Assembly (NCBI GenBank): GCA_031280065.1
Contig: JAITHH010000274.1
Span: forward strand, 1-7,862
Reading direction: 5' to 3'
Origin: Treponema sp.
GTDB lineage: Bacteria; Spirochaetota; Spirochaetia; Treponematales; Breznakiellaceae
DNA: 7,862 bases
Each line of letters begins with the position of its first letter. Within the stretch, counting starts at the first letter, position 1. The position numbers were made by a program, and so were the translations under genes. Shown piece after piece: positions 4,736 to 6,934 of the stretch. The notes below the pieces were generated by a model. The model saw only the letters and a program-made list of their open reading frames with translations, made no database searches and was not told where the DNA came from.

Positions 4736-5053
4736 ATGGACGGGACATCGCATACCTTCACCTATCCTGCCTTAAAGCTGCTGGACTACACGGTCGAAGA
4801 GCTTGAAGAGCGCGGTCTGAGTATTCTGCTGCCGTTTTATCTGCTCAAACTGAAGAAGCGCGTCCGGGCGGCACGGACACCGGAAAAGCGGCAGGAGCTG
4901 GCCGGGGAGATGAAGGACCTGGTGGAAAAACTGACCGCCGCGCTGGAGCGGGGGGCGCCAAGTAAACTCGCCCGCAGGGCGTTGAGCAAACATATACGGC
5001 ACGGCGTAGCGCTCGTAATACCCCCTATTAGCACACATGCGCGAAGGCTTTAG
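4736..5053 (+). pseudogene. Truncated Rpn / PD-(D/E)XK transposase-like remnant
   Basis: An open frame of 105 residues, with an in-frame TGA upstream at 4706. Residues 1-80 look like genuine protein: YPALKLLDYTVEELEERGLS (10-29), LLPFYLLKLKKRVRAA, and a charged helix RTPEKRQELAGEMKDLVEKL. This resembles the C-terminal half of the Rpn-type recombination-promoting nuclease / putative transposase proteins that are abundant in treponemes. The N-terminal nuclease domain with its PD-(D/E)XK residues is missing. From about residue 82 (SKLARRALSKHIRHG onward) the frame simply reads the first tandem repeat unit, so the natural C-terminus is lost as well. It is best seen as an inactive internal fragment; the family assignment is from memory of such proteins and only moderately sure. 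No ribosome binding site precedes the ATG. Confidence 0.5.
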
Positions 5054-5515
5054 CTGAGCAGGGCACGGCAAACATCCGCGCCCATCAGGGCGTTGAGCAA
5101 ACATATACGGCACGGCGTAGCGCTCGTAATACCCCATGCTCTCACAGATGCGCGAAGGCTTTAGCTGAGCAGGGCACGGCAAACACCCGCGCCCGCAGGG
5201 CGTTGACCAGACAATGCGGCCCGCCGTAGCGCTCGTAATACCCCATGCTCTCACAGATGCGCGAAGGCTTTAGCCTGAGCAGGGCGCGGCAAACATCCGC
5301 GCCCGTCAGGGCGTTGACCAGACAATGCGGCCCGCCGTAGCGCTCGTAATACCCCATGCTCTCACAGATGCGCGAAGGCTTTAGCCTGAGCAGTGCACGG
5401 CCAATAAACGCGCCCGTCAGGGCGTTGACCCAGGATATGCGGCCCGCCGTAGCGCTCGTAATGCCCCATATTATCACAAATGCGCGAAGGCTTTAGCCTG
5501 AGCAGTGCGCGGGAA
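4979..5515. repeat. Tandem array of about five ~111-bp units
   Basis: Units begin with GCGTTGA at 4979, 5090, 5200, 5311 and 5422, giving lengths of 111, 110, 111 and 111; the fifth is cut off near 5515. The most conserved part is the roughly 65-base block from GTAGCGCTCGTAAT to GGCTTTAG and the following GAGCAG; the segment after GCGTTGA varies (AGCAAACATATACGG in units 1-2, ACCAGACAATGCGG in 3-4, ACCCAGGATATGCGG in 5). Most unit joints carry the hairpin CGCCC-GTCA-GGGCG or a close variant. On the minus strand a 37-residue unit is read, with core MGYYERYGGPH and then LVNALTGA and RALLRLKPS, across units 5 to 3; the 110-base unit breaks the frame. No intact gene spans the array and I do not recognise the peptide. 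Confidence 0.85.
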
Positions 5516-5575
5516 ACCCCCGGAGGAAATTCTTCAGTTCTATGGCGGGGCGGCATCCTGAATTCGGGATTGCTG
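5516..5575. other. Short spacer between tandem array and terminal repeat
   Basis: These 60 bases follow the point where the fifth unit loses similarity. They contain no gene or clear signal, apart from a loose inverted match between AATTCTTCAG (5529-5538) and CTGAATTC (5559-5566). Confidence 0.4.
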
Positions 5576-5596
5576 GATTTAATCAGCGCTTCCCTT
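5576..5596 (-). repeat. Inverted copy of the AAGGAAGCGCTGATTAAATC repeat
   Basis: Read on the minus strand, this is AAGG-G-AAGCGCTGATTAAATC, identical to 4331-4350 apart from one extra G. It faces the copy at 4330, so 4330-5596 is a 1.27-kb segment with near-perfect inverted ends. Its last two bases on the + strand are the first two of the rfu -35 box. Confidence 0.75.
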
Positions 5597-5623
5597 GACA
5601 TCCCCGGCCCAGCCGTATACACT
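5595..5623 (+). promoter_or_regulatory. Sigma70-type promoter of the rfu operon
   Basis: A perfect -35 TTGACA (5595-5600) is followed after 17 bases by TACACT (5618-5623), which has four of six -10 bases. Transcription would begin near 5630, just before the first paired strand of the FMN aptamer at 5637, as expected for a riboswitch leader. Confidence 0.7.
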
Positions 5624-5636
5624 CACCATAACAAAA

Positions 5637-5787
5637 GATTTTCAGGGTCGGGTGCGTTTTGACAGGCGGAATGACCTGCAAACAATTCCCTACCGGCGGT
5701 ATAGCCCGCGAATTCAGGAGAACCACGCTCCCGGATTGAACCGGTGAAATTCCGGCGCCGACGGTATAGTCCGGATGGACGAAAATC
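5637..5787 (+). promoter_or_regulatory. FMN riboswitch (RFN element) aptamer
   Basis: The conserved RFN core is visible in order. P1 is GATTTTC (5637-5643) with GAAAATC (5781-5787). Then come CAGGGTCGGGTG (5643-5654), ATTCCCTACCGGCGGTATAG (5685-5704), CCCGCGA (5705-5711), a variable P4 hairpin (about 5712-5740), CCGGTGAAATTCCGG (5741-5755) for P5, and GCCGACGGTATAGTCCGGATGG (key bases at 5757-5778) for P6. It binds flavin mononucleotide and, with the terminator at 5849, should lower rfuAB transcription when FMN is plentiful. The one odd point is loop L2: about 30 extra bases (5655-5684) with their own small hairpin sit between GGGTG and ATTCCC, where the loop normally has only a few. The rest matches the consensus closely, so the assignment is firm although the insertion might change ligand response. 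Confidence 0.95.
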
Positions 5788-5876
5788 GAGCAGGCGGGAT
5801 ACCTGCCCTTGGCCGGCATCCCCGCTTCCGGATCTCCCAAAGATAACGCCCCGGATCATCAATCCGGGGTTTTTTT
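5788..5876 (+). terminator. Riboswitch expression platform with intrinsic terminator
   Basis: CCCCGGAT (5849-5856) pairs perfectly with ATCCGGGG (5862-5869) around CATCA, followed by seven T (5870-5876): a strong intrinsic terminator 35 bases before rfuA. Before it lies a small hairpin GCAGG/CCTGC (5790-5806). The left-arm sequence CCGGATC also occurs at 5828-5834, and CCGGAT at 5771-5776 inside the aptamer, so the right arm has alternative partners. That fits a switch between terminator and antiterminator governed by FMN. Confidence 0.9.
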
Positions 5877-5911
5877 GTACCCCCGCATTACCCAAAATAT
5901 GGAGACTTTAT

Positions 5912-6934
5912 ATGAAGCAAAAAAACTTTTGCCTGGCTCTGGCTGCGGCGGTATTGCTGCTGCCGGCCTGCACGGAGAAGGAAACTCCCAAAATTCCCGG
6001 AAAAACGCATATCGGGGTGTTCATCCCTGGGGTCATGTCTGGAAGCCCCATCTACGAGATGCTGGCCCAGGGGGTGCGGCAGGGCGCGGCGGATTTTTCT
6101 TCCCCAGAGGATGTGGAAGTCACCGTGGTGGAAGGGGGCTACAATCAGGCCGAGTGGGAAGCGAAGATCACCGCCATGGCCGCGTCCGGGTCCTACGATC
6201 TTATTGTTTCCTCGAACCCTTCCATGCCGGCCATTGCAGCCTCGGTGTCCCAGGGCTTTCCCAGCCAGCGTTTCCTTCTTTTAAATGGGGAACTGGCGGG
6301 GCATCCTAGAATCTTCACCCTGGCCTATAACCAGTGGGAGCAGGCTTATATGGCAGGGCATATCGCCGCCCTGGTTACCCTGGAAGCGGCTCCCGGGGGA
6401 GCGCGAAGGGTAGGCTTAGTGGCGGGCCAGGAATATCCCGACATGACCGGCGTCATTGCCCCAGGCTATCTGGCGGGAGCCCAGGCAGCGGACGCGGATT
6501 TTTCGCTGGTCTTCCGGGTGGTGGGAAACTGGTTTGACGCGGGCAAGGGGGCGGAGCTGGCCCATGAAATGATCGGCCAGGGCGTTTCGGTGATCCTCTG
6601 CGTGGCCGGAGGGGCCAACGAAGGGGTTGTCCAGGCGGCTTCCGAGGCGGGGGCCAAGGTGGTGTGGTTCGACATCAACGGCTACGGCGTCCGCCCCGGC
6701 ACCGTGGTGGGCAGCGCGGTCCTGGCCCAGGAAAAAGCCGCCCGCGAACAGACCAGGCGCTTTTTGGAGGGAACGCTTCCCTTTGGCAGCGCGGAAATCC
6801 TGGGAGCCGCCCAGGGCTATGTGGATTTTGTGGAGGACGATCCCCGCTACCATGCCGCGGTGAGCGAGGATGTCAGGGAAAAACAGGCCCTCTTGACTGC
6901 CCGGTTCAGGGCCGGGACAGGACCGGAAAAATAA
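5912..6934 (+). CDS. rfuA: RfuA, riboflavin-binding lipoprotein of ABC transporter
   Basis: A 340-residue exported lipoprotein. The start at 5912 has GGAGA (5901-5905) six bases upstream; the open frame runs further back, but that part is the riboswitch leader. A basic N-terminus and hydrophobic core (FCLALAAAVLLL) end in LPAC with Cys20 as the likely lipidated residue. The mature part is a BMP / PnrA-like (Med family) periplasmic-binding fold: IGVFIPGVMSGSPIYEMLAQ (34-53), VVEGGYNQAEWEAKI (72-86), SYDLIVSSNPSM (94-105), YNQWEQAYMAGHIAAL (139-154), RVGLVAGQEYP (166-176), VILCVAGGANEGV (227-239), VVWFDINGYG (250-259). BMP proteins bind nucleosides or riboflavin; the FMN riboswitch in the leader, together with the RfuA known in Treponema pallidum, points to riboflavin. 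The stop overlaps the rfuB start (TAATG). A close relative binding purine nucleosides cannot be excluded on fold alone. Confidence 0.88.
   Translation: MKQKNFCLALAAAVLLLPACTEKETPKIPGKTHIGVFIPGVMSGSPIYEMLAQGVRQGAADFSSPEDVEVTVVEGGYNQAEWEAKITAMAASGSYDLIVSSNPSMPAIAASVSQGFPSQRFLLLNGELAGHPRIFTLAYNQWEQAYMAGHIAALVTLEAAPGGARRVGLVAGQEYPDMTGVIAPGYLAGAQAADADFSLVFRVVGNWFDAGKGAELAHEMIGQGVSVILCVAGGANEGVVQAASEAGAKVVWFDINGYGVRPGTVVGSAVLAQEKAAREQTRRFLEGTLPFGSAEILGAAQGYVDFVEDDPRYHAAVSEDVREKQALLTARFRAGTGPEK

Follow-up and report, generated by a model that had tools for sequence, protein, structure and literature searches.

The FMN riboswitch in front of an rfuA-like gene of Treponema sp. (contig JAITHH010000274.1; the whole stretch of 7,862 nucleotides that was analysed is referred to here as the window) raises the question of what becomes of an aptamer when L2, the loop that makes contact with L6, is opened by some thirty additional bases. 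In the crystal structure report (PMC3764141), L2 is a T-loop of sequence UGAAA that contacts L6, and the adenosine A90 of L6 is intercalated into the step formed by residues 4 and 5 of L2 (A21 and A22). The first-pass annotation of this DNA had likewise taken L2 to contact L6 normally, in agreement with that report, and had proposed that an added domain of a kind not described before was inserted in the loop. We consider it most probable, at roughly 85%, that the leader is an ordinary FMN off-switch in which a tolerated, outward-pointing helix has been added to a working L2 T-loop. The features on which the argument turns are the following.

5595-5623, plus strand: promoter-like site TTGACA-N17-TACACT, 5' of the leader, a consensus match only (10 of 12 positions)
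5634-5790, plus strand: FMN riboswitch aptamer (RFN element), by RF00050 match
5650-5652, plus strand: 5' strand of P2, GGG, by direct reading and RF00050 alignment
5653-5655, plus strand: T-loop residues 1-3, U5653 G5654 C5655, by direct reading and RF00050
5656-5683, plus strand: inserted L2 hairpin, between T-loop residues 3 and 4, with a basal stem rich in U and A below the CAGG/CCTG stem
5684-5687, plus strand: T-loop residues 4-5, A5684 A5685, then the 3' bulged U5686 U5687, by direct reading and RF00050
5688-5690, plus strand: 3' strand of P2, CCC, by direct reading and RF00050 alignment
5759-5776, plus strand: P6/L6 and the conserved strand after it, CGACGGTATAGTCCGGAT, L6 being the partner of L2
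5848-5876, plus strand: rho-independent-terminator-like hairpin (5848-5870) with T tail, the putative expression platform
5912-6934, plus strand: rfuA-like gene for a Bmp-family substrate-binding lipoprotein (PF02608, E 4.4e-58)

Outside L2 the aptamer is unremarkable. The RF00050 covariance model matches 5634-5790 of the plus strand over its full length (model positions 1-138) at 91.6 bits, against a gathering cutoff of 66.2 (E 1.3e-20); the core segments other than L2 align normally, and the conserved junctions, P3, P5, P6 and L6 are all present, so that the aptamer looks as intact as was first supposed. The match also leads, as an FMN riboswitch should, into a riboflavin synthesis or transport gene, in this case the RfuA-like one. 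Proteins related to its product come from records labelled as Treponema, Breznakiella and other Spirochaetes, and from PMC4418817 Spirochaetes are known to have an rfuABCD operon that carries an FMN element; the window's protein would presumably bind riboflavin. Of 13 leaders compared by eye, the window counted in, 12 show a hairpin and T run similar to the window's; L025 is the exception. Given this terminator-like hairpin and what is known of FMN riboswitches, the FMN-bound aptamer would most likely allow the terminator to form and shut off the rfuA-type riboflavin uptake gene.

The departure from the family lies in L2, which is 7 nt long in the Rfam consensus and has 28 extra bases in the window. 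Alignment of the leader with RF00050, which the first-pass annotation had recommended as a check, crosses the loop by a local-end jump, with 32 bases against 4 model positions, and together with direct reading it places the extra bases at 5656-5683, in good accord with the roughly 30 announced; CAGG (5663-5666) and CCTG (5675-5678) are also where they had been reported. With the 28 bases removed, the loop has the form UGNRA-UU. The hairpin can be longer than originally stated because GTTT at 5656-5659 and AAAC at 5680-5683 are also able to pair, two registers being possible, and the minimum free energy (MFE) fold of the insert pairs 5658-5661 with 5679-5682. Folded alone, the insert reaches an MFE of -6.8 kcal/mol, a value equalled or bettered by 7.5% of 200 mononucleotide shuffles; in an ensemble fold of 5634-5880, nearly all of its pairing stays within the loop (15.6-16.2 of 28 positions, for bounds 5658-5685). 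The window's hairpin is therefore weak by itself, and it is convincing only jointly with its relatives.

Loops of this kind have been described. Barrick and Breaker (2007, PMC2258182) report helix-interrupted GNR triloops in the loops of P2, P3 and P5, and their updated riboswitch models specify new sites at which unconserved domains can be inserted; section 12 of that paper, on helix-interrupted loops, speaks against the earlier statement that no FMN riboswitch with such an extension was on record. The window's L2 shares with the helix-interrupted T-loop of FMN and AdoCbl riboswitches its closing G-C pairs (GGG/CCC), U1 (U5653), A5 (A5685), a GNR triloop broken once by a base-paired helix (G5654 C5655, insert, A5684) and two bulged 3' residues (UU, 5686-5687), and we found no letter that differs, the text of the paper naming no exact position for the insertion. 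A further likeness is to P4 of the FMN riboswitch, which according to PMC3764141 is also a peripheral stem without conserved letters; P4, however, contacts no other stem-loop, whereas L2 contacts L6. Among the titles listed, a literature search found none on an L2-extended FMN riboswitch of the treponeme clade. The extension is thus known in kind, and what is new is its prevalence in one clade.

We propose that L2 would here be a T-loop that a helix splits between its third and fourth residues, in the manner described by Barrick and Breaker, and that the added helix would sit in the loop and point outward. An insertion at this place leaves untouched the gap after residue 4 into which L6 intercalates; and since U1, G2, N3, A5, a residue at position 4 and the UU at the 3' side are all kept, the letters suggest that both the U1-A5 pair and that gap, where the L6 adenosine intercalates, can still form. 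An aptamer built in this way would be expected to retain FMN binding.

The helix itself is best seen across relatives. We compared 68 unique extended loops, the window's among them, after removal of two false parses, L049 and L265 (wrong strand). When the insert is taken to begin after residue 3 and to end before residue 4, its first four and last four bases pair in 215 of 266 cells. Displacing either end alone by a single base leaves 95-117 of 265-270 cells paired, and joint shifts of the two ends, inward or outward, give 201 of 261 and 171 of 271, part of the pairing surviving as expected of a continuous helix. The first pair of the insert is complementary in 56 of the 68 loops (shuffle mean 48.2), a count reached in 1 of 2000 partner shuffles, and for each of pairs 2-6 none of 2000 shuffles scored as high (kinship not removed in either case). 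Changes that preserve pairing can be seen by eye in some sister sets. The inserts range from 8 to 78 nt with no common sequence or length, and short ones of 8-10 nt (L002, L004, L121 and L259) form no stable hairpin alone. The window's insert agrees with that of L001, its nearest relative, in 12 of 28 columns, as against agreement in 83 of 97 of the other columns compared, which include P4; the insert was less alike than the rest in four of six relative pairs, and its fast turnover is not uniform because L005/L006 and L008/L010 show no such lowering. At the upper extreme, the longest L2 found (L302, from a genome of the order, 85 nt) has a 78-nt insert that is one long hairpin of -39.7 kcal/mol.

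The T-loop around these helices is conserved. In a set of 118 unique aptamers (71 extended, 42 with a 7-nt loop and 5 others), the extended ones keep U1 in 71 of 71, G2 in 63, A5 in 69 and the last U in 71, and among the parsed aptamers of the order L6 is the same kind of sequence in extended aptamers as in the ordinary form. Conserved T-loop letters and an unchanged L6 suggest that L2 and L6 still make contact. The T-loop of the extended form may nevertheless not be identical to the plain one, because its fourth residue is less often a purine: 53 of 71 extended loops have one there, versus 40 of 42 loops of 7 nt (Fisher p 0.005, uncorrected for kinship). The two 7-nt loops without a purine at this place, L051 and L063, both lack T-loop letters. 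A pair in P6 also differs: 69 of 71 extended aptamers have its G form, and 32 of the 45 with a short loop have its A form. We considered and rejected a coupling of this pair to the extension: G is also present in five of the six short-loop rfuA leaders that fall on the same side as the window in the RfuA tree described below, and the A form occurs together with an extension in L312, a contig from a viral collection, so that the G/A difference looks like lineage.

How common is the extension? In the order of Breznakiella homolactica, 111 of 390 genomes gave an FMN match, 106 of them over the cutoff, and 120 of 123 places were fetched, the remaining three being weak ones (one of G024, two of G308). 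Among the 111 aptamers that could be parsed, L2 measures 15 nt or more in 69 and 8 nt or less in 42, with none intermediate, which does not bear out the rarity that the first description had implied. Nine of the 120 loci were not parsed: L273 and L301 have plain 7-nt loops and are barely past the score limit, L291 shows a plain loop, and the others are partial, weak or were missed by the pattern; they include L299, whose contig is as long as that of L028, a locus with an extended loop. In a sample of the phylum (296 genomes, FMN match in 79), every one of the 68 places from genomes not already in the first sample was retrieved and 65 parsed, 61 with a 7-nt L2 and four with 23-33 nt, some of these genomes possibly belonging to the same order. 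The site is of a kind known to vary and many FMN riboswitches carry an insertion there, in substance the two outcomes that the first-pass annotation had itself named as fatal to its proposal.

A search of relatives' rfu leaders, also recommended there, locates the extension more precisely. Among unique leaders of the first set, 52 of 57 rfuA leaders are extended and 16 of 43 others, many of which precede rib genes by eye; in three or more loci of the class of other or no gene (L073, L295 and L253 among them), the downstream DNA is too short for a judgement. The 69 loci of RfuA relatives do not amount to a census because 34 were unparsed (upstream DNA missing, no switch, or divergence). In a quick tree of 73 RfuA proteins, 54 of 60 leaders on the window's side are extended and the other six have a plain 7-nt loop; the label changes 7 times, against a shuffled mean of 17.0, in a tree whose several long branches make details unsure. 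An early gain followed by several losses fits this pattern, the method being blind to gain versus loss. An extended L2 is thus the rule in one treponeme group (54 of 60 rfuA leaders) and uncommon elsewhere in the sampled phylum (4 of 65).

The extension also occurs further afield. L312 has an L2 of the form UGA-CCGCUUUGCGG-GAUU with an ECF-type transporter gene downstream (PF12822), and its gene content points to an origin in the Bacillota; this is an occurrence, not a frequency, because it was found by a pattern built for extensions. The viral, phage and plasmid collections hold few FMN aptamers, and nine of the ten sources examined with Rfam have a 7-nt loop. These counts give no frequency because the finds were made with loop-specific patterns or by similarity: L314 by the plain-loop pattern, L312 by the extension pattern and all others through their resemblance to a plain aptamer or the window's.

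The distribution counts against the preferred reading, since retention of the insert in most of one clade needs either inheritance or a role. Conceivably the L2 helix has a special function, such as the effect on folding, affinity or speed that the first-pass annotation had suggested. The helix-interrupted L2 might be a fixed structural subtype of the FMN riboswitch in this treponeme group, found before transporter and biosynthesis genes alike, and selection might maintain it for a part in folding or in the response to ligand while leaving its sequence free; we regard this as unlikely. Another reading, in which the helix is a functional, clade-specific element under selection, fine-tuning affinity, transcriptional timing or the speed of folding, would account for the concentration of extensions in rfuA leaders and for pairing maintained despite varying sequence and length. 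We judge it rather improbable, as the inserts have neither sequence nor length in common, six of the 60 ingroup leaders do with a plain loop, and an early gain inherited with losses would account for the same distribution. The tolerated helix, probably devoid of any special role, is thus the reading we favour.

Two near-identical 17-base hairpin sequences lie in the window, one in the L2 insert and the other just 3' of the aptamer. The resemblance of CAGGCGGAATGACCTGC (5663-5679) to CAGGCGGGATACCTGCC (5791-5807) invites a model of strand exchange, in which arms swapped between the insert and the expression platform would make a second switch. When the window's insert was shuffled 3000 times, only 2 of the shuffles matched the 120 bases past the aptamer equally well, and 9 of 68 leaders show similarity at p <= 0.05 (30 shuffles each) where 3.4 were expected. 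Most leaders, however, have no such similarity, complementarity is near expectation (5 of 68 versus 3.4), and the ensemble fold described above keeps nearly all pairing of the insert inside the loop. What is striking in the window is at most a mild excess among its relatives; we reject the exchange as highly improbable. A second promoter within the insert (TTGACA at 5659, AACAAT ending at 5686), from which transcripts would bypass the aptamer, is barely credible and is likewise rejected: it matches 10 of 12 consensus positions, but among the 71 extended unique loops the pattern used finds it in the window's only, and its AACAAT overlaps conserved T-loop letters.

The tolerated-helix reading leaves the picture of FMN riboswitch function unchanged; the variation is real and largely ordinary. 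Its interest lies in a large natural set of FMN aptamers whose L2, half of a key tertiary contact, has made room for a helix of almost any sequence. Such a set is a natural test of what the L2 T-loop tolerates. The set is also useful for aligning and finding such riboswitches, as the Rfam model needs a local-end jump at L2.

We also note some variants of L2 and of the window's surroundings. The FMN aptamers of several distant spirochaete rfuA leaders (L049, L051, L053, L055-L059, L061 and L063) have an L2 without UGNRA letters, most of them with a seemingly longer P2, for instance GGGAC-loop-GUCCC, and a J1/2 of GAGGGA or AAGGGA. L110, L117 and L261 are extended-type FMN riboswitches with a T-loop of UAA instead of UGN and lipoprotein-like genes downstream, the protein pieces of L110 and L261 bearing a weak likeness, under the Pfam cutoffs, to pyridoxamine 5'-phosphate oxidases. 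Directly 5' of the window's riboswitch, 4969-5517 consists of about five tandem repeats of 111 bases (90% matches), a length of 37 codons, each unit with an inverted repeat AGGCT-TT-AGCCT inside, and tandem-repeat peptides recur in several minus-strand ORFs in differing frames. Further upstream, a single ORF at 402-1736 joins an N-terminal CheW domain to a C-terminal CheR methyltransferase domain.
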